From Candidatus Gastranaerophilales bacterium (GTDB lineage Bacteria > Cyanobacteriota > Vampirovibrionia > Gastranaerophilales > Gastranaerophilaceae): DNA of 64,000 nucleotides. How positions within the stretch are numbered: position 1 is the stretch's first letter; every line of letters begins with the position of its first letter. The notes under the pieces were generated by a model. It did not search any database. It was not told the origin of the DNA and saw only the letters and a list, made by a program, of their open reading frames with translations. The translations under genes and the position numbers were made by a program. The stretch lies in contig CALUPU010000004.1 in assembly GCA_944322725.1 (NCBI GenBank), positions 62,001 through 126,000 of the forward strand, in the 5' to 3' direction. Of the stretch, positions 2,798 through 49,147 are shown one piece after another.

Positions 2798-2886
2798 TTT
2801 ATCGAACAGATTATAATAATTTAAAATAGCAAAATTTTTTATTCACGGGCATTCATTCCATTAGAGAAATAAAAAGGTTTTTTACA

Positions 2887-4538
2887 ATGGAAGTTTACCA
2901 GAATTATAAAAAGTACCGTTAGTATATCTCCGAATACCCGTAATGGAAAGAAAAACGCAATAACAAAGAAGCTAAAAGACAAGAATATCTAAAACGCCAC
3001 CCCGAAGCTATGAACCATGACGATTTGCAAAGAAGCAAAGTTCTTTTATGTTATAGATGTTATGGACGAGTATTCTCAAAAAAATGCATAAAATATTGAA
3101 GTTGCAACAGAAATGGCAGTTTCACAGCTATTGAATTTGCAAACCTGCTCGGTATCGGGCTTGGATTTTTAATAATGGTACTTCCTCAAGTAAAAAAAGG
3201 ACTCAATGCACTGGGTAACAAATACCCTAAAATTGGACGCGGAGTTCAATTCCTGCCTGTTGTGCTGGGCTATGTTGCAAGTATTATCGCAAGTTTCCCT
3301 ATTATGGCATGGGCAGCAAAAACACAGGTAGGAGCATCCCGTAAAGGCAGGTTGAAGCTATGCGAACAGACCTAAAAAATCCTAACAGCTTTGCTGTGTT
3401 GACTGAAGACCAGATAAAAAAAGCGAAAGAAGATGCAAAAAGCATAGTTCTGCCTGAAGAAAAAGATAAAAAAGATTTAATAAACCTCGGTTTTAAAGAA
3501 ACTTTCAAAAACCTCAAAAAACTCATTAAAAAAGATAAAGTTTATGAAGCCCAAAAAGCTGCATTTGAGGCGCAGTTGAATGAAAACCAAAAGCATTTTA
3601 ACGACCCGATTTCAGAAAAAGACATAAAAAAAGCAAAACGTGACCAACAACTTTTGACAAAACTTGTTGAAAAAATCGATATCGCATCACAGGATTATGC
3701 AGAAAACGTTGAAATGGCAACAAACATCGTTCAAGGTTCAGCGTTTGCCGGAGGTGTATTTACAGGGTGGATTGCCAAAAAGGCAGCAAAACTCTTTAGA
3801 ATGAACCCTGCTAACAAAATAACACAGGTATTGCCTTATGTTGTGGGTATTATGGTTACATTACCTGTAACGATTTTTGCAGCAAAAATCCAGAAACAAG
3901 CCGCACGTGTCGGTCGTTTTAAAGAAAGACAGGAACTTTTAAAGAACCCGCAAATACTTGTGTATGTCTATGATAAAAAAGCAGACGAAATTCAAGATGC
4001 AAAACCGCTTGAAGAAAAGAAAAAGCCCGGATTCATAAAATTCCTTATTCAGGCATATAAAGACAATAAAATTTACGAAGCATATATGAAAAAAGAGGGT
4101 ATAGAAGACAAAAAGCTGCACAAAGCGATAGACAATCTTCAACTTTCAGAAGCACAACTTAAAGAAGCGAAAGCGTTACAACAAAATACGTTCAAAACAT
4201 TCAATAAAGTAGATGAAAAATCACAAACTTACGCAGAAAGTGTTGAGGCACTGGGGCAAAGTATACAGATTCCGATTGCGCTGTTTGGTTCATTGCTTAG
4301 TATGGGCTTAGCATTCTTGTTTAACAGACAATTGATAAGGAACCCTGCTAAAGTTAATGATAAAAACATGATGAATATTATGACAGGTGTTATTGGTAAA
4401 GCATTAACAGGTATGATTGCAGGTTTGGCACCGGTGTTTGTTACAGAGTACTACATCACAAAAGAACAGAAAAAAGCTTCACGAGTAGCAGATATGCTTG
4501 CAATCAAAGAATTAAACGACTACAGGCACTTTGTATAA
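2887..4538 (+). pseudogene. Decayed gene for a modular, repeated membrane protein
   Basis: The intact 3' part (3360-4538) encodes two homologous modules. Each has a lysine-rich helical linker, a motif of the form D..SQ.YAE.VE, a pair of hydrophobic helices and a Q..A.R.GR/AD tail. Upstream, in changing frames, a third copy of the module is readable: EVYQNYKKYR, then IDVMDEYSQKNA, NIEVATEMAV, then IEFANLLGIGLGF and on to ASRKGR at about 3350. It is broken by stops near 2920, 2941 and 3099 and by at least two frameshifts, one near 3125 and one near 3355 where ASRKGR should continue into AMRTDLKNPNSF. The 392-residue remnant could still be translated from 3360, but no ribosome site precedes it. 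I do not recognise the family; the modules suggest an integral membrane protein. The 5' limit is uncertain. Confidence 0.72.
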
Positions 4539-4661
4539 TCAAGTAACTTTCGACCCACAAACGCTCTCGCTGTGTTGATTATTTAAAATAATCGTACTGT
4601 ATGTCATAATCAAAATACTCATAAAAATACAGTTAAAATACAAAGAATTTTTCCGCAATAA

Positions 4662-4687
4662 AAAAAACTCTCATTAGAGAGTTTTTT
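4662..4687. terminator. Bidirectional hairpin terminator
   Basis: AAAAAACTCTC and GAGAGTTTTTT are perfect arms around a four-base loop. It gives a U-run in both directions, ending the tRNA-Gln transcript on the minus strand and possibly the decayed gene on the plus strand. Confidence 0.8.
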
Positions 4688-4689
4688 AT

Positions 4690-4765
4690 TGGCTGGGGCG
4701 GAAGGATTCGAACCTCCGGAATGGCTGGACCAAAACCAGCTGCCTTACCACTTGGCGACGCCCCA
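4690..4765 (-). tRNA. tRNA-Gln (anticodon TTG)
   Basis: Read on the minus strand it folds as a full cloverleaf. The acceptor TGGGGCG pairs with CGCCCCA, the anticodon loop TTTTGGT gives TTG, and the T-arm contains GGTTCGAATCC. CCA is encoded. A consensus promoter lies upstream and a hairpin terminator directly downstream. Confidence 0.95.
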
Positions 4766-4806
4766 ATATATAATTTTACTAAATGCCCGATGCATCTGTA
4801 TTATAT

Positions 4807-4835
4807 ATAGTATAGGGCACATGATAGCATGTCAA
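4807..4835 (-). promoter_or_regulatory. Promoter of tRNA-Gln(TTG)
   Basis: On the minus strand TTGACA is followed after 17 bases by TACTAT, close to the sigma-70 consensus. It lies 40-70 bases before the tRNA and just past the end of the small cysteine-rich gene. Confidence 0.65.
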
Positions 4836-4838
4836 GGA

Positions 4839-5033
4839 TTATTTAAATAAACCAAGCTGCTCTCCTGTACAGCTTTTCTTATAGATTTCATAATCAAAGC
4901 AGCCTATGTCGTTTATTGCCACAGGATTATTTGCAAGGTCTCTGATTCTGCCCTGTCCGACAGTACAGCGCTTTATGTATTTGCAGAAACTGCATATTTT
5001 CCAGTTCTTATCAAGATTCTTTTGTCGTGCCAT
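4839..5033 (-). CDS. Small cysteine-rich protein (64 aa), function unknown
   Basis: The protein has Cys14-x2-Cys17 and Cys23 near the N-terminus, then a GCFDYE segment with Cys45 and a last Cys54. This spacing suggests a metal or iron-sulfur site. It is basic at the start and has no membrane segment. The gene sits between pfp and the tRNA-Gln promoter with no clear Shine-Dalgarno sequence, right after the pfp terminator. I do not recognise a named family. The ordered cysteines and the CFDYE end argue that it is real rather than chance. Confidence 0.5.
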   Translation of the reverse strand: MARQKNLDKNWKICSFCKYIKRCTVGQGRIRDLANNPVAINDIGCFDYEIYKKSCTGEQLGLFK

Positions 5034-5050
5034 GTTTAAATTTTACAATA

Positions 5051-5085
5051 AAAAACAGGTGCCTGTTAAGAACACCTGCTTTTTA
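5051..5085 (-). terminator. Rho-independent terminator of pfp
   Basis: On the minus strand CAGGTG and CACCTG pair around an 11-base loop and are followed by a run of T. It starts 14 bases after the pfp stop codon. Confidence 0.75.
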
Positions 5086-5098
5086 TCATAATAATAAT

Positions 5099-6778
5099 TT
5101 ATACAGAGGCTGGTACAGCTTCTCTTTCCAGTTTCAGAGTTTGTGTTGTAATATCACATACTTCTGCAGGACCCCAGTACTGAATAGAGCCGGGGAATAA
5201 ATATTTGTCATTCATCGCCCAGTCTTCTCTGTTTGCTTCAAGTTTTTTGAATACAGGACCGTCCAGTCTTACGAGAGCTTTTTGGATAACGGGCTTCATA
5301 TGACCGTGGCGTTTTTCCATATTCATCATCATTGTAAGAGGAACACCTCCTGCAATCCATTCTGTAGAAGGCGCTGTAAGGTTTCTTACAGAAGACAGAT
5401 AACCTGTAAGACCTGATTGAATCAATGCATAAGCGTTGAAACCGAGCGCATAACAATAGTTTGCATCAAAGTTTGAAGGGAAAGCACATCTTCCTTCGTA
5501 ACCAAAGAAATGACACTGGTCGGAGAATTTACCCATAAACTCGCCCTGTGCTTTCATTTCGTCCAATTTAACTTTAATCATTTCGATTAACAGTTTTTCT
5601 GTTTCAATTTTAGAAACCTGAACATTTCCGTGAGGGTCTCTGTCCATAAGCAGCTGTGCCTTGATTAAAACAGGCAGAGATTCAAAAACGGCAGCGTTTG
5701 CAGGTTCGAGTCTGCTTTCGATAAAGTTAAATTTGTCGGCAGGAACTGTTAATTTGTTGTAAGAAGCGTCCTGTTCAAGTGTTGACATAACATCGTTGAG
5801 GTTTGAAATCATTGTTTTCATTTCAGGGATAAATTCAATCAAACCTTCCGGAATCAATGCCACACCAAAGTTTTTACCTGCATTTGCACGTTTTGCTATG
5901 ATGTCAGCCATATAATCAACGATTTGCTTGAGTGACATTTTCTTTTCTTCAACTTCTTCAGAAATTAAAGTAATGTTAGGTTGTGTCTGCAAAGCAACTT
6001 CAAGAGCAACGTGAGTAGCACTTCTGCCCATAACTTTAACAAAGTGCCAGTATTTTTTAGCTGAATTAACGTCTCTTTGAATATTTCCGACAAGTTCTGC
6101 ATAAGTTTTTGTTGCAGTGTCAAACCCGAAAGAAATTTCGATTTGTTCGTTTTTCAAGTCGCCATCGATTGTTTTGGGACATCCGATAACCTGAACACCT
6201 GCATTTTTAGCAACAAACCATTCTGCAAGCATTGCCGCGTTAGTGTTAGAATCGTCACCCCCGATAATAACAATGCCCGAGATATTTAATTTTTTGCAGT
6301 TTTCAAGTGATTTTTCAAACTGTTCTTCTGTTTCGAGTTTTGTTCTACCAGAGCCGATAATATCGAAGCCGCCGGTGTTTCTGTAAGCGTCAATGATTTC
6401 ATCAGTGAATTCAATGTACTGTCCGTCAATGATACCGGAAGGACCGCCTAAGAAACCGTATAATTTGCTTTCAGGATTAGCCTGTTTCAAAGCATCATAC
6501 AAGCCTGCAACAACATTGTGACCGCCGGGAGCCTGACCGCCTGAAAGGATTACACCCACATTTCTTGCGGCAAAGCTTTGTTCTTCGCTGGATTTGAATG
6601 TAACTGTACATCCGCCGTATGTGTTTACGAATAATTTTTTAATCTGCTCCTGATCTTTAACGCATTCTGTTTTGTCTCCTTCAATAACTGCCGCTTTTTT
6701 AATGCCGGCGGCCAGAGTTGAAGGCAATACAGGTTTAAAGCCCAGTCTTGCTTTTTGCAAAGGTGATAATTCTGTCAT
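5099..6778 (-). CDS. pfp: Diphosphate--fructose-6-phosphate 1-phosphotransferase, long form
   Basis: This cytoplasmic enzyme interconverts fructose 6-phosphate and fructose 1,6-bisphosphate with pyrophosphate as phosphoryl donor, giving reversible glycolysis. The 559-residue length fits the long group II (plant/Bacteroidetes-like) enzymes. Visible motifs are [10 protein letters not shown] (79-88), GGDDSNTNA (173-181), [10 protein letters not shown] (201-210) with catalytic Asp205, and MGR (250-252). The second Asp in GGDDS and the Lys of PKTID are the known signature of PPi use; ATP-dependent enzymes have GGDGS and G at these places. The gene stands alone, with its own terminator and an RBS-like GAGG before the ATG. 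Confidence 0.95.
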
Positions 6779-36422: not shown

Positions 36423-37454
36423 ATGAAAATAAGTCCGAATACAAATAATCTTAACAATAATACACCTGTGAATTTTAAAGGGATATATAATAATAAGATT
36501 CTTTTAAAGGGTTTGAAATTTGCCGCAAACAACGGTACACTTTTTTCTGCAACAACAACGCTTGCTCTTTCTGTTACAGCCAGGCCGCTTGCTATTATGG
36601 CAACACCAAAAACAGATAAAGAAAATAAAAAGCTTGCTGCAGCAAAATCCTTTGCTTCGGGTATTGTAAATTACTTAATAGTTCTGGGGGCATCTTTGCC
36701 AATTGTAAATGCAGTTAAAAAGATAGATAAAAATCCGTCACAGTTTTTAAATCCCAAAACAATAAAAAATCTAAAGGGTTCAGCCAAAAATCTTGCTTCA
36801 TCAAAAAAATATTCTTTTGCTTCACAATTGTTTAAGCTTGGGCTGGGACTTTTGATTGCCATACCAAAGTCCTATCTTACCTGCGCATTGATACCGCCTG
36901 TTATGTCGGTAATATTTCCTAAGAAAAAAAATAAAATACAAAATCATTCCGATTCTAAACAGCAGGGCAAAATTATTTCTTTTAAAGGGCTATATGACAG
37001 GGCTGCTACAGGTATTGCAAAACGTATCGGAAAAATTATGGATACAAAAATACTTCAAAAAGCAGCAAGCAAACTCTATGACACAAATTTTGCCCAGCAT
37101 ATTATATCACTTACGGATGTTGTTTTGACAATGTCATTTGTTGAAAGAACAGTAAAAAGTAAAAAGATTGAAGAAACAAGAAAGAAACCATTGATATATA
37201 ATTCTATAATATCAACAGCACTGTGTTTGTCTGGCGGTTATGCCGTGAATGATTTAACAAACATTCCTACTGAAAAATTTATAAAAAAGTTTAAACAGGT
37301 AAACAAAGATCTGCCTGAACTTGAAAAATATCTGGAAGGGATAAAGGTGGCAAAGCCGGTGCTGATTCTTGCAGGAATTTATTATATATTTATACCTTTG
37401 ATTTCAACTTTTCTTGCAGACAGAACAGACAATAAAAGCTATAATAAACTATAA
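36423..37454 (+). CDS. Orphan membrane protein with FK motif
   Basis: The 343-residue protein starts MKISPNTNNLNNN and has VNFKG at 16-20, with a second ISFKG at 185-189 after a polar linker. Several hydrophobic segments are seen, about 40-60, 80-98, 138-160, 260-275 and 313-333. Basic patches lie between them. Two halves, each starting with an FKG(I/L)Y segment, suggest an internal duplication. The family is not known to me. There is no clear ribosome site. It faces away from pnuC and is followed after 30 bases by a glycosyltransferase. Confidence 0.72.
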   Translation: MKISPNTNNLNNNTPVNFKGIYNNKILLKGLKFAANNGTLFSATTTLALSVTARPLAIMATPKTDKENKKLAAAKSFASGIVNYLIVLGASLPIVNAVKKIDKNPSQFLNPKTIKNLKGSAKNLASSKKYSFASQLFKLGLGLLIAIPKSYLTCALIPPVMSVIFPKKKNKIQNHSDSKQQGKIISFKGLYDRAATGIAKRIGKIMDTKILQKAASKLYDTNFAQHIISLTDVVLTMSFVERTVKSKKIEETRKKPLIYNSIISTALCLSGGYAVNDLTNIPTEKFIKKFKQVNKDLPELEKYLEGIKVAKPVLILAGIYYIFIPLISTFLADRTDNKSYNKL

Positions 37455-38468: not shown

Positions 38469-38495
38469 ATTTCGTGTTCGAATTTTATTAAAAAG

Positions 38496-38509
38496 GCCTC
38501 CGAAGAGGC
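38496..38509. terminator. Hairpin at the left border (likely original tRNA-His terminator)
   Basis: GCCTC-CGAA-GAGGC lies ten bases outside the left attachment core. The right end of the element has a matching hairpin with the same CGAA loop, so the insertion seems to have kept a terminator behind the tRNA. Confidence 0.6.
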
Positions 38510-38518
38510 AATTTGTTT

Positions 38519-38527
38519 AAATGGGGC
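38519..38527. repeat. Left attachment core
   Basis: AAATGGGGC matches the last bases of tRNA-His including CCA (complement). The bases after it (AAGCAATGGGTTAAACTTCG) are the element side and faintly resemble the tRNA T-arm region. Confidence 0.6.
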
Positions 38528-38633
38528 AAGCAATGGGTTAAACTTCGAACCTTATTGTGTGAAGTTAGCACATCACTCACTACATGATGAACATGTTATA
38601 AACACAATTAAAAGGCTACTTCAACTCGAATAA
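38520..38633 (+). other. Cut-off alternative C-terminus of the integrase
   Basis: From the core, in exactly the frame used by the integrase at the right core, the sequence stays open for 37 codons and ends at TAA 38631-38633. The first three codons (NGA) are the core itself; the following 34 end in INTIKRLLQLE. If the two cores were joined in a circle the integrase would read into this segment instead of into the tRNA. It has no start codon context of its own. Confidence 0.55.
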
Positions 38634-38697
38634 ATAACTATCACTTTTGATTAATTATCAAGCTATATCTAACTTTGAAGTTAATTCATTTTTACAA

Positions 38698-38815
38698 TTA
38701 ATTCTACATTAGAATAAATAGATTTATGGAATAAGTAGAATTATGAATTAATAGAATTATTTACAACAAATTAAAATAAATAGAACTAATTATATCTCAA
38801 AATAATTCTATTATT
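38698..38815. repeat. Iteron-like AT-rich repeats
   Basis: Short copies of a TAGAATTAT-like word recur in both orientations: TTAATTCTACATTAGAATAA, AGTAGAATTATGAATT, AATAGAATTATTT, AATAGAACTAATTA, AAATAATTCTATTA. They lie 200-320 bases before the 448-residue gene and could bind its product as a replication start. The copies are imperfect. Confidence 0.4.
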
Positions 38816-38821
38816 TCGTAA

Positions 38822-38847
38822 TTCTTTGATAACTAGTTATCAAAGAA
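38822..38847. repeat. 26-bp perfect palindrome
   Basis: The sequence is centred on CTAG at 38833-38836 with 13-base arms (TTCTTTGATAACT on the left). It lies between the iteron-like repeats and the first gene of the element. It may be an operator, an origin structure or a recombination site. A weaker hairpin, AGGTGGA/TCCACCT, follows at about 38925-38951. Confidence 0.65.
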
Positions 38848-39018
38848 AAAAAGGAAGAAGGAGTTATTCCACCAGACCTTGAGATTATATTTTAAGTTGA
38901 AATATATAACTCTTGGTTGTTGATGAGGTGGAGTAAATATATATTCCACCTTAATTTATTTAAACCAAAGCAGTAGAGTTTATATTTTAGTTTATACAAC
39001 ACCAGTGAGGAATATATT

Positions 39019-40365
39019 ATGACAACCAAAACATTTGAAGAAGAAGTATTATCAGTAACACGCAAGTTACAGGGACTTATTAATTCAGGTTTTGTTATTA
39101 AAGATAACATTGGAAAACCTATTACATCAGCACATCAAGCAGCGATAAAGCTAGTTAATTCTGCTTTAACTGTGTATACAATTACCATGCCAGATGACCA
39201 TAAATGCTGTTGCATAAAATGGTCAAATATGGCAATTAAACTGATTAAACCTTACATCAAAAACAAATTCTTTATAGAGCAATGGTCATCTAATTCACAT
39301 TATATGCTGGTCGATAGTTCAATAATTGAACAGTTACAGCAACTCCAACCTATTGATGATATAAAGGTGGTTGATACATTTGATTTAGAGTTCACAAAGT
39401 CAACTTTACCGACCTACACAAATAGAGCTTCGCTTTTTACTGTAAATACTGCACCAGTCTTGACTCCAAAAGAATTGAATAAAGTCTTATCTTTATCAGA
39501 GCGTATTTTAGTCAATCAAAATAACTATTTCCTATTATCAAATTCAATTACGCACACATACAATGCACCTATGACAATTATTCGCCTATTAGGTGAAAAT
39601 GTGGTTTCATTAAATGCTCTAAATCTCTTGGAGTTAATACTTACATATGCAACAAATAGCTCTGCTGTCTTTGGAAATAAGACTGATGAACTTAAACCAT
39701 TCATCATTAGATATGATTTCTTTAATAACAATGATTTTGAACTAAAACAATCTATTGATGATGTATTATCAGCCTTGTCTGAACTTCGAGCTATAACATT
39801 GATTAATAGCTATAAGTATAACTTTGAATTAGAAGCGTTTGAAATAGTATCAAATGTCATAAGTAAATCTATAAAGCAATACTCATATACACAACCTGTT
39901 GGATATTATAAATCTTTCAAATTACACCAGCAGGACTATTGTTATACCTTTATAAACTATTTGCAATATGTTTTAAATGTTAAATATACGACAACATCAA
40001 AAGTTGCTGATAATGTAGAAGATGAGAAAACAACGAAAGTGAAACAGTTGAAAATCTGTCTTAGTAGTCTTTTGTATAACCTAGAATTAGATGAGTATAT
40101 TCATGACCATAATCGCATAGCACAGGTACTGAGTAATTTATATCAAGCAGGTTTAAAAGCTTTTTTGTTGAAACAAATATCCTTTGAGTTTAATAGTAGA
40201 GCAGTAAAAGATATGATAGCACATAAAGATAAATTGCATGAATACTTCGTGCTAGATATAGACCAAAATTCCAAAAGACAATTTGAAAAATGCAAAGATA
40301 TAGTAACGCTAATAAATCTAGATATTAGTTCAGCAAAATGTAGAACTAATATAGTAAGACGGTAA
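39019..40365 (+). CDS. Element protein of 448 aa, possible replication initiator
   Basis: No domain is recognised with certainty. The protein is helical and soluble, with segments such as RKLQGLINSGFVIKD and SIDDVLSALSELRAITLINSY that look like winged-helix pieces. It is the first gene of the element and directly follows iteron-like repeats and a long palindrome, the usual place of a replication gene, hence the guess. GTGAGGA precedes the ATG. It lacks primase, helicase and relaxase motifs. A regulatory or structural role is equally open. Confidence 0.65.
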   Translation: MTTKTFEEEVLSVTRKLQGLINSGFVIKDNIGKPITSAHQAAIKLVNSALTVYTITMPDDHKCCCIKWSNMAIKLIKPYIKNKFFIEQWSSNSHYMLVDSSIIEQLQQLQPIDDIKVVDTFDLEFTKSTLPTYTNRASLFTVNTAPVLTPKELNKVLSLSERILVNQNNYFLLSNSITHTYNAPMTIIRLLGENVVSLNALNLLELILTYATNSSAVFGNKTDELKPFIIRYDFFNNNDFELKQSIDDVLSALSELRAITLINSYKYNFELEAFEIVSNVISKSIKQYSYTQPVGYYKSFKLHQQDYCYTFINYLQYVLNVKYTTTSKVADNVEDEKTTKVKQLKICLSSLLYNLELDEYIHDHNRIAQVLSNLYQAGLKAFLLKQISFEFNSRAVKDMIAHKDKLHEYFVLDIDQNSKRQFEKCKDIVTLINLDISSAKCRTNIVRR

Positions 40366-40404
40366 TACAAAAATAAAATGCCTATATTAGGCAAGGAGTT
40401 TTAA

Positions 40405-40593
40405 ATGGAAGCTTATAAGCAAGAAGAGTACGATTTTATTGAAGATGATGAATTTCAAAGGTTCCTTAAAAGTAGACTAAACGGTAAATTTGTTCCTTTG
40501 AATAAATTCATGGCTATACTTAATAGTTGCAAAAGAGAATATATACGCTATCTCAATAATAAACATCTGTACAGGAATACACCATTATATTAA
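40405..40593 (+). CDS. Small element protein (62 aa)
   Basis: The protein is acidic at the start (EEYDFIEDDEFQRFL) and basic after that, with no known motif. AAGGAG lies seven bases before the ATG. It is followed after 14 bases by another 62-residue frame, so the two are likely one transcript behind the 448-residue gene. Confidence 0.6.
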   Translation: MEAYKQEEYDFIEDDEFQRFLKSRLNGKFVPLNKFMAILNSCKREYIRYLNNKHLYRNTPLY

Positions 40594-40607
40594 AAAGGAT
40601 ATATTAA

Positions 40608-40796
40608 ATGGATAAGAAAGAATTAGCTAAAAAACTTAAAGCAAGAGCAAAAGCTCACAGTGAACAAATACTAAAAACTTCTGATACTCCAGAAGAATTA
40701 ACACCTCTAGAGCGAGCTAAGTTCATGAGACGAAAAATGGCTAATAAATATGATAATTATATAGCTAAAAAACTGCTTTCAGGTTTAGACAAATAG
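40608..40796 (+). CDS. Small basic element protein (62 aa)
   Basis: The protein is lysine-rich (MDKKELAKKLKARAKAHS) with a predicted helical pair and no cysteine or membrane segment. AAAAGGA precedes the ATG. A DNA-binding or nucleoid-like role is possible from charge alone. No homologue is recognised. Confidence 0.6.
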   Translation: MDKKELAKKLKARAKAHSEQILKTSDTPEELTPLERAKFMRRKMANKYDNYIAKKLLSGLDK

Positions 40797-41000
40797 TATA
40801 TATAAATATTTAAATATGTCTATCATGCCAGATAAATCAGCCACATTATTGGCTGGACTTGGCACGTGTATGTAGAATAGAGTCTTATATTGATTTGTAT
40901 CTTTGCTTTATTCATAACTGCACGTTTGATTTGTCTAGGATTTTGGAAATATTAACTTTGCTTGTTTTACATACACAAATAAATCATATATCTTAACATA

Positions 41001-41029
41001 TTGGCTTGCCTATGTTTTTGTGTTACTAT
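41001..41029 (+). promoter_or_regulatory. Promoter of the methyltransferase gene, leaderless type
   Basis: TTGGCT and TACTAT are 17 bases apart. The -10 ends six bases before the ATG at 41036, so transcription should start at or next to the start codon. This also excludes the longer frame beginning at 41006. Confidence 0.55.
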
Positions 41030-41035
41030 AAACAT

Positions 41036-41983
41036 ATGAAGAAGTATCAAGTTGGGGAACTATTTGCTGGTATAGGTGGAATTGGTCTCGGATTTCAAGG
41101 GGCTGGCTTTGAGCTGGCATGGGCTAATGAAATTGACGAAAAGGCTTGTATAACTTATGCAAATAACTTTAGTCATCTGCTTATAAATAAAGATATGACA
41201 GAGGTTGACCCTAATGAACTTCCTAAGATAGATGTGCTAACAGGAGGCTTTCCATGCCAAGCGTTTTCAATAGCAGGATATCGTAAAGGTTTTAAAGATG
41301 ATAGGGGTAATTTGTTCTTTGACATTCTTAGATATATTGACATATTACAGCCTAAAGTTGTATTCCTAGAAAATGTTAAAAACCTTACAGCACATGATAA
41401 TGGAAGAACATTCAATGTTATCCAAAAAGAATTAACTAAAGCTGGATATTATATTAAATCTAATGTGTTAAATACAGCACAATATTCTGATGTTCCACAG
41501 AACAGAGAACGAATTTATATTGTATGTTTCAAGAGTAAAGAGCAGGCTGACAAATTTAAATTTCCACAACCTGTGAATAAAGTACGTAGCATAAGAAGTT
41601 TACTTGATACAAATGTGTCTAATGAATATTCTTATAAAAATAGTAAGTATTACGAGCAATTAAAGTCTGAAATGACTAATCCTAATACAATATATCAGTG
41701 GAGACGTATTTACGTACGAGAAAACAAAAATAATTTATGTCCGACATTGACAGCTAATATGGGCACAGGTGGACATAATGTGCCATTAGTTATGGATAAA
41801 GATGACATACGAAAATTAACTCCTAGAGAATGTGCAAGATTTCAGGGTTTTCCTGATAACTATAAGTTGCCAGATAATTTGCCTAAATCTGCTTTATATA
41901 AGCAAATTGGTAATAGTGTGTCTGTCCCAGTAATAAAGGCTATTGCAAAGAATATCATGCAAGTTCTTGAGGAATGTGAATAA
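41036..41983 (+). CDS. DNA (cytosine-5-)-methyltransferase of the element
   Basis: The 315-residue enzyme has the full C5 set: ELFAGIGGIGLGFQGAGF (motif I, SAM), GGFPCQAFSIAG with the catalytic Cys (IV), FLENVKNL (VI), PQNRERIYIV (VIII) and QIGNSVSVPV (X). The target-recognition region is short, as in simple type II enzymes. There is no ribosome site, in line with a leaderless message. The stop overlaps the next start by one base (TAATG), which couples it to the restriction enzyme gene so that methylation comes first. Confidence 0.93.
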   Translation: MKKYQVGELFAGIGGIGLGFQGAGFELAWANEIDEKACITYANNFSHLLINKDMTEVDPNELPKIDVLTGGFPCQAFSIAGYRKGFKDDRGNLFFDILRYIDILQPKVVFLENVKNLTAHDNGRTFNVIQKELTKAGYYIKSNVLNTAQYSDVPQNRERIYIVCFKSKEQADKFKFPQPVNKVRSIRSLLDTNVSNEYSYKNSKYYEQLKSEMTNPNTIYQWRRIYVRENKNNLCPTLTANMGTGGHNVPLVMDKDDIRKLTPRECARFQGFPDNYKLPDNLPKSALYKQIGNSVSVPVIKAIAKNIMQVLEECE

Positions 41984-43128
41984 TGTTCTTCAATAATCAA
42001 AGCAAAACCGAACAGGATAAGTATGAATTACTATTGCGTATAGTAGCTGCATTATCTAAGTTATCTGCTGATAGTTCTACTATACCTTACCTTTATTATC
42101 GTATGGCTGAGAATATATTTTGCAGAGCCTTTGAAGCCAAGAACCTTTCACGTTCAGATATATCAATAGACGCTAGTAAGTCTTCTTGTGGTATTGGACT
42201 AAAAACATTTTTACATAAGAACAGTCGTTGTTTAGAGAAAGTGGCTGAATTTAACAAAGAAAGACACTTATATGTAAATTCACTCAATAATGCAGATGAA
42301 TTGATATTTAAAATAGCTAACTTTAGAAACAAACGCATTACCTCTACTTGTGGAATTTGTTCTGTTCCTACTGATAATTTAATTTATCATTGCGTTACTA
42401 GAGCTGATTCTGTGCTGTATTTACATGAAGAACCTATGCACCTTATTGATATTGATAATATAAAAATTTCATCAATTAAGGATAATACTATATCTTTTCA
42501 TGATAGTTTAGAAGAATACTGTTTTAATGTGTCCAAAAGCACATTATTTAAAAGGTTTAATATTAGTCCTATTCACACTATTCCAGTAAAGATATTCGAT
42601 GACCCATTTGATTTGCTAGAAAGATACTTATCAGATGAATTTCAAACCGATACTAGTAACCGTATTGTTGATACTATTTATTTACCTTTATATTCTTACG
42701 AAAGGAAAACACATAAGAAATATGTTCCTATGCAAAGTGGATTAAATCAATGGAATGCAGACGGTAGAAAAAGAGACCCAAATGAAGTTTATATAAGAAT
42801 ACCTGCTGAAATAAAACACCATAAACCTGATTTCTTCCCTCCGCGTAATGTTAGCTTTACTTTAAATTTGCCGAATGGCAGTTTTAAAATGGCTAAAGTT
42901 TGTCAAGAAAATGATAAAGCATTAATGAGTAATCCTAACGAAGATTTAGGAAAATGGATTTTGAGAGATGTTCTAAATCTAGCAGAAAATGAACTTGTTA
43001 CTTATGAAAAGTTAGAGCAAATTGGAGTTGATACGGTTCAATTAAACAAGTTTGAAGATGGTACGTACGAGATAAACTTTAGAGAACTAGGCTCTTATGA
43101 ACTGTATAAGCAACAAGAATGTATTTAG
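41983..43128 (+). CDS. Type II restriction endonuclease with C-terminal B3-like DNA-binding domain
   Basis: The last 150 residues match the B3-like recognition domain of the NgoFVII/BfiI group: MQSGLNQWNADGRKRDPNEV, DFFPPRNVSFTLNLPNG, and DKALMSNPNEDLGKWILRDV. The N-terminal part has SCGIGLKTFLHKNSR, KVAEFNKER and NLIYHCVTRAD, which I recall from the same restriction family, whose members cut with a phospholipase D-like site. A clear HxK motif is not seen, so the catalytic type is open. It follows the C5 methyltransferase with a one-base overlap and would cut unmodified DNA at the shared site. Confidence 0.82.
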   Translation: MFFNNQSKTEQDKYELLLRIVAALSKLSADSSTIPYLYYRMAENIFCRAFEAKNLSRSDISIDASKSSCGIGLKTFLHKNSRCLEKVAEFNKERHLYVNSLNNADELIFKIANFRNKRITSTCGICSVPTDNLIYHCVTRADSVLYLHEEPMHLIDIDNIKISSIKDNTISFHDSLEEYCFNVSKSTLFKRFNISPIHTIPVKIFDDPFDLLERYLSDEFQTDTSNRIVDTIYLPLYSYERKTHKKYVPMQSGLNQWNADGRKRDPNEVYIRIPAEIKHHKPDFFPPRNVSFTLNLPNGSFKMAKVCQENDKALMSNPNEDLGKWILRDVLNLAENELVTYEKLEQIGVDTVQLNKFEDGTYEINFRELGSYELYKQQECI

Positions 43129-43730
43129 CTAGATAACATTTTTAATCTTTTCAAGAAGTTATACAAATTACCTGTAGTAGTTTTGTATTGTTTGGCAATT
43201 ATAGTCTTTGGTACACCTAAAGCAACTAGACGTAGTATATCGTCTGAATATTTATCAAGACGTGATTTTCCTTTACCAGTAGGACGACCTAACTTAACTC
43301 CAGAAGCCTGTCTAGCATGCAATGCTTCTTTAGTACGTAATGAGATTAATTCTCTTTCTATTTGTGCTACGAGTGCGAATATAGTTTTTGTTACAGTTGA
43401 AGCAATAGAGTTATCCATATTACAGAAGTTTTCTTTTAGCGAATATAGTGTAATACCTTTATCCTGCGTTAATTGAATAACTTCTAATATTTGAATTGTA
43501 GAACGAGCTATTCTGGACAATTCCGGGACAATTAAAATATCACCAGATGTCATATTATCTAGCAACACACCGAGCTTCCGTTTCTTATAATCCTTAATGC
43601 CAGATATTTTTTCTTCTATGAACTCAACATTACCCAGCTTATGTGCGTTAGCAAACTGCAATATGTCCAGTCTATTTTTTTCAGTGTTTTGGTCAATAGT
43701 TGATACCCTGATAAAACCTTTTGTTGCCAT
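43125..43730 (-). CDS. Small serine recombinase (resolvase/invertase)
   Basis: The 201-residue protein has the catalytic domain with Ser10 (FIRVSTIDQNTEKN), LIVPELSRIARS holding conserved Arg residues, and FALVAQIERELISLRTKEAL. A C-terminal helix-turn-helix follows (LGVPKTIIAKQYKTTTGNLYNFL). GVKLGRPTGKGKS is the usual hinge. It would resolve dimers or invert DNA. It converges on the restriction gene with a four-base overlap of the ends. AAGGAAT precedes the ATG. It is not the integrase, which is the larger protein at 45079. Confidence 0.92.
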   Translation of the reverse strand: MATKGFIRVSTIDQNTEKNRLDILQFANAHKLGNVEFIEEKISGIKDYKKRKLGVLLDNMTSGDILIVPELSRIARSTIQILEVIQLTQDKGITLYSLKENFCNMDNSIASTVTKTIFALVAQIERELISLRTKEALHARQASGVKLGRPTGKGKSRLDKYSDDILRLVALGVPKTIIAKQYKTTTGNLYNFLKRLKMLSS

Positions 43731-43842
43731 GATATTCCTTCTTTTAATGTAAATGTCAATTCTGATGTTTTGTTGTATGAATGCAAATAATAATATATAA
43801 CCGTTATCATTGTGCAGATTTGTGCAATATTGACGTTCGTTT

Positions 43843-44046
43843 TTAGTGTACGTTTACTAGTTCTTCCACCTCAACATAAATGTTATATAAGTTCTGTTCA
43901 ATAGTATCTGCTAATGCTTTAAGTCCTGTTTGCAACTTTTTTTCTAGACTCAAATCCGCTAAATTGTTCTTCATAATTAATGCTAAACCGTATGTGTTCT
44001 TAATGTATTGTAGTAAGTCCATTGTTTCCATATCATTACACCTCAT
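43843..44046 (-). CDS. Small element protein (67 aa)
   Basis: The acidic helical protein (METMDLLQYIKNTYGLALIM, ending YVEVEELVNVH) has no recognised motif. GAGGTG precedes the start region. It follows the 95-residue gene after 18 bases and is probably cotranscribed from the strong promoter at 44388-44416. An ATG four codons in is an alternative start. Confidence 0.55.
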   Translation of the reverse strand: MRCNDMETMDLLQYIKNTYGLALIMKNNLADLSLEKKLQTGLKALADTIEQNLYNIYVEVEELVNVH

Positions 44047-44064
44047 AAATAGCGTAGGCAGACC

Positions 44065-44352
44065 CTACGCTATAGTAAATTTTCTGTAGTTACTTTGTTT
44101 AATGAATGCATTGTACAATTCTAAATACTTCTTCTTAAAGGCACTTGTATTAAAGCTGTTTCTAACAATATTTGTGAAGCGTACTGTAAATGCACCAATC
44201 ATCATTTCTTCTACACCAGCAGCGTCAAGCACTGACTTAATAAGAGCTTCCTTTTCCTGTTTCATTTCATTAAGCTCATTGATTTTAGCTTCCAATGCTC
44301 TGATATCTTTGATTTCATTTTCAAGATTTGCAGTGATTACTAATGTTTTCAT
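44065..44352 (-). CDS. Small coiled-coil phage-type protein (95 aa)
   Basis: The first half is a coiled coil (DIRALEAKINELNEMKQEKE). The second half, AFTVRFTNIVRNSFNTSAFK...YNAFIKQSNYRKFTI, follows a pattern I know from small phage and conjugative-element proteins found with recombination genes; their role is unclear. AGGAGAT precedes the ATG and a consensus promoter lies just upstream. Confidence 0.6.
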   Translation of the reverse strand: MKTLVITANLENEIKDIRALEAKINELNEMKQEKEALIKSVLDAAGVEEMMIGAFTVRFTNIVRNSFNTSAFKKKYLELYNAFIKQSNYRKFTIA

Positions 44353-44387
44353 ATTGTTATCTCCTATTAGTTAACTGTTACATAAAC

Positions 44388-44416
44388 ATTATAAACGATA
44401 TAATGTACATTGTCAA
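44388..44416 (-). promoter_or_regulatory. Consensus promoter for the two small minus-strand genes
   Basis: TTGACA-N17-TATAAT is a perfect sigma-70 match, about 36 bases before the ATG at 44352. Confidence 0.75.
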
Positions 44417-44457
44417 GCATTTGGTTTATTATTTTGTAATATTTCTTTACTAATCAG

Positions 44458-44486
44458 TTGACTAAGTTTACGATTTCGTGTATACT
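44458..44486 (+). promoter_or_regulatory. Promoter of the helix-turn-helix gene
   Basis: TTGACT-N17-TATACT is one base off the consensus in each box, 36 bases before the ATG. It is divergent from the promoter at 44388-44416; the 41-bp gap between them is a natural place for an operator. Confidence 0.7.
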
Positions 44487-44521
44487 GTTAATATGGTCAT
44501 AAGGACAAGAAGGAAATAAAT

Positions 44522-44791
44522 ATGACTGAACAATTAAATACGGATACTTTCAGGCGTGAACAGGACAGCATTGATGAACTTCGCAGAGAAGTAAAAGGAA
44601 TGATTGTAGCGAAAGGCTATACTATGGACAAGCTTGCAGAAGAATTAAATGCTCGTTATGGAACAAAAGAAAGTAAGGCAAATCTATCTAACAAGTTAAA
44701 GCGTGGCTCGTTAAGATACATAGACATGCAACGTATTTGTGATGTACTTGGTTATTATATAGACATCAAACAACACAGAGTTGATAGATAG
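44522..44791 (+). CDS. Helix-turn-helix regulator (DUF6471-like)
   Basis: The 89-residue protein has VKGMIVAKGYTMDKLAEEL followed by KESKANLSNKLKRGSLRYIDMQRICDVLGY. This is a lambda-repressor-like helix-turn-helix of the short kind I associate with DUF6471. It probably controls the two divergent promoters next to it and so the state of the element. AAGGAAA precedes the ATG. Confidence 0.75.
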   Translation: MTEQLNTDTFRREQDSIDELRREVKGMIVAKGYTMDKLAEELNARYGTKESKANLSNKLKRGSLRYIDMQRICDVLGYYIDIKQHRVDR

Positions 44792-44910
44792 AAGCCTCGC
44801 ATAATAGCAGTAGTTAAATTAGTTAAATATGTCATAGAACTTTTGTAGTTTGTGGCAAACTTTTTGCTGTGCAGAATAATCATAGTTAGCAATAATTAAG
44901 GAGACCTTAA

Positions 44911-45060
44911 ATGGTGAGTAAATGCAAAGATTTAGAGATAAAGATTAAGGTATGTTATGTAGCATACAAGCCTAGTATTACAGAAGCTGATGTTGATGAT
45001 TTGGTTAGCTTTATTGTAATAGTCGCACAAGAAGGATTTAAAACAATTAAAGTGGCATAG
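44911..45060 (+). CDS. Small element protein (49 aa)
   Basis: A perfect AAGGAG lies eight bases before the ATG. The frame encodes a 49-residue protein (CKDLEIKIKVCYVAYKPSIT, then a helix VDDLVSFIVIVAQEG) with no known motif. It ends 18 bases before the integrase start, so it is likely the upstream partner in its transcript and perhaps an excision factor. That role is a guess from position. Confidence 0.5.
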   Translation: MVSKCKDLEIKIKVCYVAYKPSITEADVDDLVSFIVIVAQEGFKTIKVA

Positions 45061-45078
45061 CCAGAAAGGTATATTATT

Positions 45079-46785
45079 ATGAATAAAGCAATTATTTATG
45101 TTAGAGTTTCGACAGAAGAACAGAAAAAGAAAGGGTATAGCATTGCTGGACAAGTTCAAGAGTGTACAATCTTTGCACAACGTATGGGGTATGAAGTAGC
45201 GAATATCTTTACAGATGAAGGTAGAAGTGCTAAAGACCTCAATCGTCCAGAATTACAAAGAATGTTAAAGTACATTAAAGATAATCACAAATCTATAAAT
45301 GCACTTATATTCTGGAAATGGGATAGGCTTTCTAGAGGAGAAGACAGTGACTATATCGAGTTAGAAAAGATTTTTAAGAAATACAATGTTATTCCATTGT
45401 CCACGATGGAAAATAATGACGATACACCAGAAGCTGACTTAACCAGAGGAATTACAAGAGTTACAAGTAAGTATGAATTAAAGAAAGACTCACAACGTAC
45501 AAAAATGGGAATGAAGCGTAAAGCTAACGAAGGACACTTTCCAGGAAAAGCACCTATTGGTTATATTAACGTTAGGGATGAAGATGACAGAGGGTATATC
45601 ATAGTTGATGAAAAAATGAAACCTCTTATTAAAAACATCTTTAAGTACTACGCTTCTGGACAGTATTCATTTGAAAGTCTTGGAAACAAGATGTATCTTG
45701 AAGGATTTAAGAATAAATATGGCAAACCATACCCAGCCAGAAAGTTCGAAGAAATCTTAAAAAATGTATTCTATGTTGGTAAATTTAAATGGGCAGGTGA
45801 ACTATATGATGGTAAACACGAAGCTATTGTTGATAATAAACTATTTTATAGAGTACAAGATATGTTTAAAAAGACAGATAAACCAGTACAGAATGACAAG
45901 AATTTCACTTATAGCAAATTAATAAGATGTGCAGATTGTGGACGTGTTTTAACCGCAGAAACACAACGTGGTGGACACAACAGTGGCAACTATGTATATT
46001 ATCACTGTGGCAACAAAAAGTATCATAAAACTCTAAAAGGAATGAGCGTACGTGAAGAAGCGATTGACATTGCAGTACAAACAATAATTGGAGCAATAGA
46101 AATACCTGCTGGTATTGTACGCAGGTTAAAACAAAAAATATTAGATTGTCTTGATGAATTATACTTTGTTGAGAATAGATTGATAAATTCTAGAAATCAA
46201 AGACTTAAAGAACTTGAACAACTTATAAAAAAGAGTTATGAAGACAAGATACTAGGTAAACTACCAGCTTCATTTACTGATGAAATGTTTAATCAACAAT
46301 ATGAGGCTTGGATTAAAGAACGTGATTTGATTACTATAGAAATTAAAGAAAGCAATGACATTAACCGTACAATCTACAAGAATATTGACCTTATTATTGA
46401 CTTCTGTAATCATATTCCAGAATTATATATTAAATCAGATTTGGACAATAAACGCACAATGTTACGCTTGCTTATTGAAGAAATTCTATATAATCACATT
46501 GACAAAGAATTATCTGTGAAATTAAAACCAATTTTTGAAGCTTTAAGAATGATTAAAGACGCTTATAGTGCAGATAAAAAAGTTCGAACCCTTGAAAAGC
46601 CTATTACATCAGAGGTTTGGGAATATCTAGAAGAACAAGTAGAACAATTAGTAAATAGTAAAGTTCGAACCCTGAAAACCCTTATTGTTCCTAACAAAAA
46701 AGGAGCCGAAGCTCCTAATTTGATAAATGGGGCGGATGATGGGATTCGAACCCATGTATATCGGAACCACAATCCGAGGTCTTAA
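45079..46785 (+). CDS. Large serine recombinase, integrase of the element
   Basis: The 568-residue protein begins with the serine recombinase domain: IYVRVSTEEQKKKGYS with nucleophile Ser11, then FWKWDRLSRGED with conserved Arg residues. A recombinase domain (GMKRKANEGHFPGKAPIGY) and a zinc ribbon (CADCGRVL...YHCG) follow, then a coiled coil at about 350-420, as in large integrases of the phiC31/TP901 type. The last 17 residues (from GADDGIRTH on) are encoded by the antisense strand of tRNA-His, so the C-terminus depends on the insertion. AGAAAGG precedes the ATG. Confidence 0.93.
   Translation: MNKAIIYVRVSTEEQKKKGYSIAGQVQECTIFAQRMGYEVANIFTDEGRSAKDLNRPELQRMLKYIKDNHKSINALIFWKWDRLSRGEDSDYIELEKIFKKYNVIPLSTMENNDDTPEADLTRGITRVTSKYELKKDSQRTKMGMKRKANEGHFPGKAPIGYINVRDEDDRGYIIVDEKMKPLIKNIFKYYASGQYSFESLGNKMYLEGFKNKYGKPYPARKFEEILKNVFYVGKFKWAGELYDGKHEAIVDNKLFYRVQDMFKKTDKPVQNDKNFTYSKLIRCADCGRVLTAETQRGGHNSGNYVYYHCGNKKYHKTLKGMSVREEAIDIAVQTIIGAIEIPAGIVRRLKQKILDCLDELYFVENRLINSRNQRLKELEQLIKKSYEDKILGKLPASFTDEMFNQQYEAWIKERDLITIEIKESNDINRTIYKNIDLIIDFCNHIPELYIKSDLDNKRTMLRLLIEEILYNHIDKELSVKLKPIFEALRMIKDAYSADKKVRTLEKPITSEVWEYLEEQVEQLVNSKVRTLKTLIVPNKKGAEAPNLINGADDGIRTHVYRNHNPRS
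46701..46716. terminator. Hairpin inside the integrase gene, at the right border
   Basis: AGGAGC-CGAA-GCTCCT lies in the coding sequence of the integrase, twelve bases from the 3' end of tRNA-His. On the minus strand the T-rich bases after it make it a likely terminator for the tRNA. It mirrors the hairpin outside the left core. Confidence 0.55.
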
Positions 46786-46804
46786 CCACTTGACGACACC
46801 CGCC
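46728..46804 (-). tRNA. tRNA-His (anticodon GTG)
   Basis: On the minus strand GCGGGTG pairs with CATCCGC, with the extra G at -1 opposite C73 as required for histidine. The anticodon loop TTGTGGT reads GTG. The T-arm has GGGTTCGAATCCC and CCA is encoded. Its 3' end is the attachment core of the element. Confidence 0.95.
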
Positions 46805-46841: not shown

Positions 46842-46904
46842 GGTTCCGTCTCGGAACCATAATCTATAACAGCGAGGTCTTAACCACTTGACGACACCCG
46901 CCAC
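46842..46904 (-). pseudogene. Broken 5' half of a second tRNA-His
   Basis: A 31-base stretch (46874-46904) is identical to the 5' end of the real gene (46776-46806). It is followed by an eight-base insertion and a changed anticodon stem-loop (GATTATGGTTCCG, G34 to A). The T-arm and acceptor end are missing. It lies between the promoter and the working gene. Confidence 0.75.
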
Positions 46905-47065: not shown

Positions 47066-48067
47066 TTAATTTGTTTTTAGATTTACACCTACTCTGTGGG
47101 GTTCATTGATTTCTGCAACAAAGTTGCTTGAATCCGGGGTTTGGAATATTACAGTTGCTTTGTATTTTTCTGCACAACGTGTTAGTACAGCTTTCATCCA
47201 TTCTGTAACTTTAAATTCTGTATCCTTTGAAACAAGCTTGTCCATACCTTTTACTTCTATCAGGGTTCTGTTTCCTGTTTCATCGAATTTTTCTTTTGCA
47301 TTTTTTAGTGCGTCATAAAAGTCTTTTTGCATTTTTGCGGTTTTGTCTTCGTTTACTGTTGCAAAGTATACACCGGATTGCTTTCTTGCAAAGTCTACAA
47401 ACTGTTCGCCTTGTTCTTTGTTACTGCCTTCTATCATAATTGCGTTTGGTATGACTGTATCAATACCTTGTCTTTCGTCTTCTATACAGTTAATGAATCC
47501 TTTTTGCAATTTATCCAGATTTTTGTATTGCTCGAGTTCTCTTTCTTGTTTGTTCATTATTTTTTTAAGCTTATTTAATTGTGTTTCTTGAAATTCTTCT
47601 TCTTTAGCTCTTTTCATATCGCAAATCAGTGTAGCAACACGTGCAGTTTTAGCATCTATTTTGCCGTTTTGTCTGGCTTTTCTTATGTAGGCTTCTGTAG
47701 CACTTATAGGCGAGTTTGCCAATTCCCATAGTCCCAGTGTACATGCATCCAGTAATATTCTCATGAATTCTGCGCCTTCTTTATTATCTATATAATTTTC
47801 TGAATCTAAATTACATAATTTTCCTAGCGGCGCTAAGAGCCAATTCAAGCCGTGAGATTCCATATAAAGGTCGCCATATTTATCACCCTTTTCATCTTTG
47901 TACATTTTTCTCCATTCATCGCCGGTCTGGTTGATAAAACGCTTTGCCAATTCTATTTCATCATCTTCATAATAACCGGACGGAAATTGTTGTCCTTTAA
48001 AATTTGGGCTTGAATATTTGTTTTGTTGTCTGTTGACCATAGGTGTTGAGATACTGTTTATTCTCAT
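47066..48067 (-). CDS. AAA-like paralogue lacking nucleotide-binding motifs, with FK motif (A)
   Basis: The 333-residue protein begins MRINSISTPMVNRQQ and has PNFKG at 21-25. The C-terminal 140 residues align with the AAA domain of the gene at 49177: GIDTVIPNAIMIEG at the place of the P-loop strand, NRTLIEVKGMDKLV at Walker B and EKYKATVIFQTPDSSNF at sensor 1. The P-loop Lys/Thr and the Walker B Asp-Glu are gone, so ATP hydrolysis is not expected. EFKVTEWMKAV is nearly identical to its neighbour. The middle is helical with a coiled coil. No ribosome site of great strength is seen. Confidence 0.75.
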   Translation of the reverse strand: MRINSISTPMVNRQQNKYSSPNFKGQQFPSGYYEDDEIELAKRFINQTGDEWRKMYKDEKGDKYGDLYMESHGLNWLLAPLGKLCNLDSENYIDNKEGAEFMRILLDACTLGLWELANSPISATEAYIRKARQNGKIDAKTARVATLICDMKRAKEEEFQETQLNKLKKIMNKQERELEQYKNLDKLQKGFINCIEDERQGIDTVIPNAIMIEGSNKEQGEQFVDFARKQSGVYFATVNEDKTAKMQKDFYDALKNAKEKFDETGNRTLIEVKGMDKLVSKDTEFKVTEWMKAVLTRCAEKYKATVIFQTPDSSNFVAEINEPHRVGVNLKTN

Positions 48068-48106: not shown

Positions 48107-49147
48107 TTATTTTTTATTCTCTTTATTGTTATTTCCAATCTGTTCAAAGAATTTTTTAATCTTATCTTTGCCAGCAACAAATATTCCGATAATAGCTACT
48201 AATATCGAGCCGAGTTTGAATTTTTTATTTTTAAATAATTTTGACTTACCTAAGTTTTTACTTGTTTCTTTTATTGTGTCTTTAGCCTCATTTTTGATAT
48301 GTTCAGTTTTTTGGGTAACATTTTTAGTAGTTTCTGTCAGCTTATCTTTTGTTTCGTTGAGGGCTGTTTCAGCTTTTTTGCCTGTTTCTTTAGCTGTTTC
48401 TTTTATTGCGGGTGCAATTTCTTCTATTTCATCAGCCACATAGGGTAGTTTTGTTAGAACATTAACACCAATTCTATGTGGTTCTATAATTTCTTCGATA
48501 AACTTTCCGGAGTCTTTTGTTTTGAAAATAATTGTAGCTTTATATTTGTCTGCACAACGTGTTGTTACAGCTTTCATCCATTCTGTAACTTTAAATTCTG
48601 CTTGCTTATCAACCAGTTTGCAAAAATCATCGAGTTCAATTAGAGTTCTTTTACCTGTTTTTTCAAAATTTTGCAAAGACTCTTGAAGTGCGTAGTACAG
48701 ACCTCTTTGAGCATCCGGGATAGTAGGCTGCTTGGGCACATGTTTATAATTCATACCTCCTTCCATATCTTTTACACTTTTAGCAAAATTAATGATATCG
48801 TCAGCAACTTTGCCGGAAGGGTCTTCAACCATAACACAATTGGGTATAATTGTATCGATACCCTTATGTTCGTCTAAAACCGGAAATATAAAACCGCTCA
48901 ATATATTTTTAAACCCCGGTTCGATATGTTTTTTAAGCATATTATTATCCATATCTTTCAAGCTTGGATATTCATCTAATAAAAGAGGTATTTCACAACC
49001 CCGAATCTGTATTTTCAAGGTTCTCCTCGCAGAAGAAAACTCATCAAATGAAGCTGATTTAAAAGACGGTGCTGTGTTGTTAGATGTAGTTTGTGTTCTG
49101 GTTCTGTAAGTTGTGGTGTTGTGGATGGGCTTGATAGTTATTGGCAT
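48107..49147 (-). CDS. AAA-like paralogue lacking nucleotide-binding motifs, with FK motif and membrane tail (B)
   Basis: The 346-residue protein has PSFKS at 27-31 in a Thr/Asn-rich start. The AAA-like core shows GIDTIIPNCVMVED, KRTLIELDDFCKLV and DKYKATIIFKTKDS, again without a P-loop. It is followed by an 80-residue Lys/Glu/Thr repeat helix (KETGKKAETALNETKDKLTE) of LEA or apolipoprotein type and one hydrophobic helix near the C-terminus (LGSILVAIIGIFVAG). The membrane tail is absent in paralogue A. It lies 29 bases after the ATPase gene and 39 before paralogue A, forming one operon. Confidence 0.75.
   Translation of the reverse strand: MPITIKPIHNTTTYRTRTQTTSNNTAPSFKSASFDEFSSARRTLKIQIRGCEIPLLLDEYPSLKDMDNNMLKKHIEPGFKNILSGFIFPVLDEHKGIDTIIPNCVMVEDPSGKVADDIINFAKSVKDMEGGMNYKHVPKQPTIPDAQRGLYYALQESLQNFEKTGKRTLIELDDFCKLVDKQAEFKVTEWMKAVTTRCADKYKATIIFKTKDSGKFIEEIIEPHRIGVNVLTKLPYVADEIEEIAPAIKETAKETGKKAETALNETKDKLTETTKNVTQKTEHIKNEAKDTIKETSKNLGKSKLFKNKKFKLGSILVAIIGIFVAGKDKIKKFFEQIGNNNKENKK

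Follow-up and report, generated by a model that had tools for sequence, protein, structure and literature searches.

The closest precedents for the locus described here are the "suicidal" tyrosine integrases of Archaea (SSV1, pTN3, and pT26-2) and the integration-dependent immunity of mycobacteriophages. In the archaeal elements, attP lies in the element's own integrase gene and integration alters the product, which loses its catalytic part; in free or tandem copies the gene can be intact. A review calls such self-disrupting integrases exclusively archaeal (PMC8371274). In the BPs-type mycobacteriophages, attP lies within the coding sequence of the repressor, and integration shortens the repressor's C terminus by 33 residues (PMC4557955). 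Our literature search, which was not exhaustive, found no serine integrase with attP inside its own gene; phi105, considered as a precedent, was rejected, as its attP lies just after the int stop codon.

The window analyzed here, a stretch of 64,000 nucleotides from a genome of the gut bacteria Candidatus Gastranaerophilales (contig CALUPU010000004.1), holds an 8.2-kb island that adjoins tRNA-His at its 3' end and is bounded by two copies of TAAATGGGGC (Table 1). The cores themselves read AAATGGGGC at 38519-38527 and 46725-46733, and one further identical base on the left of each extends the repeat to TAAATGGGGC. The island's integrase possesses the complete domain set of the large serine integrases (resolvase, recombinase, and zinc ribbon; PF00239, PF07508, and PF13408, each above its cut-off), is 38 to 64% identical to its relatives, and carries a catalytic serine motif, RVS (R9 V10 S11), that is shared without exception by 6 close relatives and a wider set of 53. 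From its domains, its RVS motif, the fold of residues 1 to 488 in a structural model of a relative, and an attachment-site geometry with a 5-bp shift, we assign it to the large serine integrases of the A118/LI, Bxb1, and phiC31 type. Unlike the known members of that class, it appears to have attP inside its gene and an extra C-terminal tail that is exchanged on integration. Unlike the archaeal suicidal integrases, it is a bacterial enzyme with serine recombinase domains and no tyrosine recombinase catalytic domain, and its catalytic and DNA-binding domains stay whole, the last ~37 residues alone being exchanged. The likeness to BPs lies in an attP within a coding gene and the loss of a C-terminal stretch (33 residues there, 37 here), the difference being that the gene carrying attP is the serine integrase itself rather than the repressor.

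No clean empty site with the window's flanking genes was found among the genomes searched. The flanking proteins at 36423-37454, 47066-48067, and 48107-49147 have an N-terminal FKG/FKS-type motif in common (for example, NTPVNFKG and SSPNFKG), which recurs in several otherwise different proteins of the window. Just upstream of the intact tRNA-His gene, its 5' half is present a second time as a partial copy (46851-46901; 82% identical), and other genomes also have pieces of this kind close to tRNA-His.

Table 1. Features of the tRNA-His island, in window coordinates.
Feature	Position	Strand	Basis or remark
Terminator-like hairpin AAAAAGGCCTCCGAAGAGGC	38490..38509	-	Sequence; many relatives have this hairpin type immediately 3' of tRNA-His
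Left core (attL) TAAATGGGGC	38518..38527		Direct repeat with 46724-46733
Stored integrase tail (predicted), 37 codons NGASNGLNFEPYCVKLAHHSLHDEHVINTIKRLLQLE + stop	38520..38633	+	Open in core register
attP P'-arm motif TTCGAACC	38544..38551	+	Tail codons TTC GAA CC, 16 nt past core
Island cargo	39019..45060		Includes 448-aa protein of no known function, small ORFs, DUF6471 protein
C5 methyltransferase	41006-41983		Island cargo
NgoFVII-like restriction enzyme	41983-43128		Island cargo, with C5 methyltransferase
Small serine resolvase	43125-43730	-	Island cargo
Large serine integrase, integrated form	45079..46785	+	568 aa; PF00239, PF07508, PF13408
Direct TTCGAACC copy inside int coding sequence	46583..46590	+	Motif search
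Second direct TTCGAACC copy inside int	46664..46671	+	81 bp from first
Hairpin AAAAAAGGAGCCGAAGCTCC within int codons	46696..46715	-	CTTCGG mirrors P' motif
Right core (attR) TAAATGGGGC	46724..46733		Direct repeat of left core
Replacement C terminus, 19 codons NGADDGIRTHVYRNHNPRS + stop	46726..46785	+	Antisense tRNA-His
tRNA-His (GTG), attB target, intact	46728..46803	-	tRNA call

An initial annotation of this DNA had proposed that int crosses the right core in frame to end in antisense tRNA-His, that the same register continues openly from the left core for 37 codons, and that such an open run has a chance probability of several percent. All of this stands. The right core is read in the int frame as AAT GGG GC, and the frame (45079-46785) ends with NGADDGIRTHVYRNHNPRS and a stop in antisense tRNA-His. 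The left segment runs from AAT (38520) to GAA (38630) with its TAA at 38631-38633, exactly where the annotation had placed it, and 34 of its 37 codons follow the shared N-G-A. A shuffle of the left-end composition puts the chance of 37 open codons at 3.6%. The left segment is the predicted 3' end of int in the circular form, which would encode an integrase of 549 + 37 = 586 residues, versus 568 in the integrated form, and integration would exchange the 37-residue tail for 19 residues encoded by the tRNA.

Comparison with other genomes settles the matter: the left-end segment is a conserved module of protein. Two other genomes contain elements whose left ends continue in the same register (NGASNGLNFEPYCLELIHLCMHDDETIEQIRKFL..., NGASNGLNFEPGVNYIVKFAHLCLHDEETIEQVKQFL..., and NGASSGMISEPLKDVIISIDIELNQVLIQKIQRLIAA), and a tail profile, which matches the window tail with E values of 3e-24 and 5e-20, located the module in 34 of 288 genomes of the family in its first version and in 60 of 383 once improved. 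The modules start at the core nearly always, with unrelated chromosome or a neighboring element's right arm upstream, and they share one register that stays stop-free beyond the DNA arm in dozens of elements. In pooled pairs, and excluding the first 11 tail codons, which overlap the attP DNA arm, pS is 0.54 and pN is 0.21 (pN/pS about 0.4); changes at codon positions 1, 2, and 3 number 98, 62, and 153 over 19 independent pairs (p 2e-9). Because both the codon-position pattern and the excess of pS over pN are seen beyond the arm, the tail is under purifying selection as protein, and its conservation as such in dozens of other elements removes the chance explanation. The tail types are very diverse, at 19 to 83% identity to the window's. 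Tail and integrase lie 6 to 41 kb apart in integrated elements, yet across the eleven elements or contigs that have both, the divergence of the tail correlates with that of its own integrase (Mantel r 0.77, p 1e-4). Selection on the tail must come from states in which it is translated, either the circular element or an array with a right-hand neighbor.

Integrated, tandem, and joined states were all found in sequence. On four IMG/VR contigs (L168, L170, L174, and L176), int continues unbroken through the core into the tail, encoding a protein of 524-560 aa, and no tRNA lies nearby; a contig from a metagenome-assembled genome (L277) carries a joined gene like theirs. The L170 sequence is also present in two identical contigs, and its joined integrase sits in a phage context, the tail segment adjoining an endolysin gene and phage tail genes. 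Two arrays of elements in tandem (G247 and G224) each have a left integrase whose frame continues into the tail of the neighbor on its right. The other chromosomal copies examined at tRNA-His, which have no right-hand neighbor, end in tRNA antisense with the pattern NGA..G.RTH.YRNHNPR. or, like L274 and the right-hand integrase of L271, terminate a little sooner within antisense tRNA. The claim that the gene has different C termini when integrated and when circular is thus borne out in relatives, by tRNA-antisense ends at tRNA-His and by virus-contig homologues that end in a tail of the left-end type. An integrase that stops before the core and a joined copy in another frame were the two observations that the initial annotation had set against its own reading; neither was found among the integrases of this clade and the joined copies examined.

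The joined virus contigs are linear fragments on which no direct terminal repeats were found, and for this reason a tandem prophage origin is possible for any individual contig. They were recovered with an alignment query; IMG/VR searches with the window integrase alone or with the second G247 integrase (int2) alone gave no matches. We considered int2 of G247 with its tail as a free phage and rejected it: the contig derives from a chromosome, since it also holds tRNA-His and another integrase, and the joined gene represents a tandem junction. Related serine integrases are also found at tRNA-Glu (L286 9995-11531 and L287 6707-8433), with frames that run into antisense tRNA; the left ends of these sister elements were not found within the sequence examined. 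One phage contig with a joined integrase also has a reverse transcriptase beside a tail protein (L350 3841-7695), a locus that looks like a diversity-generating retroelement.

The difference between attP and attB of serine integrases has been modeled as a 5-bp shift of the zinc-ribbon domain (PMC3783163). Here the arm motif lies 16 nt from the core in 38 of 38 motif-matching tails, a count that leaves aside 15 further tails in which the motif is diverged or absent by the search pattern, and 11 nt from the core in 62 of 62 tRNA-His genes. The attachment-site geometry, with the motif 5 bp farther out in attP, is by this measure of the large serine integrase type. The motif changes in step on both sides: the window type has TTCGAACC, the G068 type TTAGAACC, and the G057 type TTACAACC. 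The motif type of the copies inside int covaries with the P' motif in relatives, and these copies may serve as additional binding sites for the integrase or be left over from previous joining events. TTCGAACC occurs at 46583, 46664, and 46745 with an exact spacing of 81 bp, in the int 3' end and then in the tRNA T-loop. The CCGAAG-to-core spacing is 13 nt in 29 of 33 copies, and the hairpin within the int codons can be inferred to form the P arm of attP and a replacement terminator for tRNA-His; the last int codons before the core would then be protein coding, P arm, and terminator all at once. The hairpin beyond the left core is presumably the former tRNA-His terminator, moved to the left end by integration. 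Other short repeats of ~130-280 bp, several in a row, lie beside tRNA-His at L055, L057, and L058 (in G001, G022, and G015); these consist of core, tRNA-like pieces, and terminators and are distinct from the tail cassettes discussed below.

An AlphaFold2 model of the joined L170 integrase (mean pLDDT 84, pTM 0.47) follows the canonical fold to about residue 488, the solved serine integrases 9dxh, 9iu2, and 4kis aligning to this part, and continues through a disordered linker into tail helices at 530-544 and 546-559 (pLDDT about 65-77). Structural alignment beyond model residue 492 gave no match, which is not a sign of a new fold. The model thus makes the tail a helical addition, tethered outside the canonical fold. 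Since that fold ends before the core, the tail-less enzyme may still be active.

We consider the following scenario likely. With attP embedded in int, at the 3' end of the gene, the reading frame of the circular element or incoming phage would run through the core into a tail of ~37 residues and stop just past attP. When attP recombines with tRNA-His at its 3' end, the codons of the tail would be carried to the opposite end of the element and int would be fused to antisense tRNA-His, from which 19 other residues and a stop are read. This exchange of 37 residues for 19 is shown by the sequences, through the two forms of the gene, the conserved register, selection on the tail as protein, naturally occurring joined genes, and the attachment-site geometry; the functional steps that follow are inferred. 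The tailed enzyme would be the working form for attP x attB recombination at the circular stage, and the integrated copy would encode a tail-less enzyme of altered or lowered activity, such that integration limits itself. Efficient remobilization would then call for a tail from a tandem neighbor or incoming element, or for a directionality factor. Least certain in this scenario is what the exchange does to activity and direction. Serine integrases are one-way already without a factor, so a further latch is possibly redundant.

We prefer self-limiting integration over two readings in which the tail sets direction or stability. In the first, a direction switch, the tailed form integrates and the tail-less integrated form excises without a directionality factor, or with less need of one. 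Two enzyme forms do exist, each reporting the state of the element, and the tail is tethered just past the zinc-ribbon/coiled-coil region, which controls synapsis in serine integrases (PMC3783163); no serine integrase working in this manner was found in the literature searched, and we regard such a switch as rather doubtful. The second, which we judge unlikely, holds that the tail is a degradation signal with an ssrA/ClpX-like C terminus, which would make the circular-form integrase short-lived until integration removes the signal. The BPs repressor and integrase set the precedent (PMC4557955). An alanine end (AA, VA, CA, or YA) is found in 20 of 43 distinct tails, which share ancestry and are not independent counts, versus 4.3% of 719 ORFs; the host tmRNA tag ends in ALAA, and most phage-type tails end in LIAA or LVA. 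The Ala-ended tails of many relatives may recall the ssrA-like tag of BPs, but the window tail ends in QLE, its whole tail type lacks the Ala end, and conservation spans the entire tail rather than its end, leaving support for a degradation signal mainly in the phage-type tails.

Self-limiting integration also has to be weighed against the view that the tail has little effect, the enzyme being fully folded in its absence and the exchange a tolerated side effect of the position of attP. The great diversity of tail types and the end of the canonical fold, in the model, before the tail are consistent with this; the purifying selection on tail codons past the arm and the parallel divergence of tail and integrase argue against it, and we judge it unlikely too. 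That only the left-arm DNA matters and the open frame arose by chance is highly improbable: the first ~11 codons do overlap the attP arm and its motif, and a single 37-codon run has the chance probability given above, but the third-position excess and the conserved stop-free frames that dozens of elements show past the arm, together with the uninterrupted genes in nature, speak against it.

Most tail-bearing elements for which both ends are in hand (28 of 33) have no recognizable integrase, and many of these are cassettes of 0.4 to 3 kb, with one to three genes each, in tandem at tRNA-His. They keep the tail as protein, and selection on those tails therefore needs an extra argument. Composite excision, in which the tail of the left-most cassette completes the right-most integrase, is a possible reason for the upkeep of tails in cassettes. 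The 5.3-kb array in G203 apparently holds eight cassettes, of which two are weakly called. Tandem arrays of integrase-less cassettes, each cassette starting with a core and an integrase-tail segment, are found at L106 (G203:C9) 799-6137 and also at L056, L107, L108, L110, L112, and L124; their cargo includes a RelE/HigB-like toxin with an HTH partner and a TIR-like protein. We offer only tentatively the broader idea of a serine-integrase cassette system, in which integrase-less cassettes queue at tRNA-His and the exchangeable tail acts as a state sensor of timing and direction. Each cassette would bring attP arms and a spare integrase C terminus, and the integrase would regain a tail only with a cassette or its own circular junction downstream. 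Like integrons, these arrays line up small gene cassettes in tandem at a single place in the chromosome, and most of the cassettes lack a recombinase gene. Unlike integrons, their int-bearing elements have a serine integrase with attP-type arms instead of the tyrosine integrase IntI with attI/attC sites, the cassettes carry attP arms and an integrase tail, and the site is tRNA-His.

For serine integrases, the question that matters most is how direction is controlled, and this locus would provide two natural versions of one enzyme whose C terminus reports the state of the element. Enzyme mining from prophages should take heed, as the annotated protein of such elements would be the tRNA-tailed form, which differs from the product of the free element. 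Self-altering integrases, described as exclusively archaeal and of the tyrosine type, would extend to the serine integrases of Bacteria.
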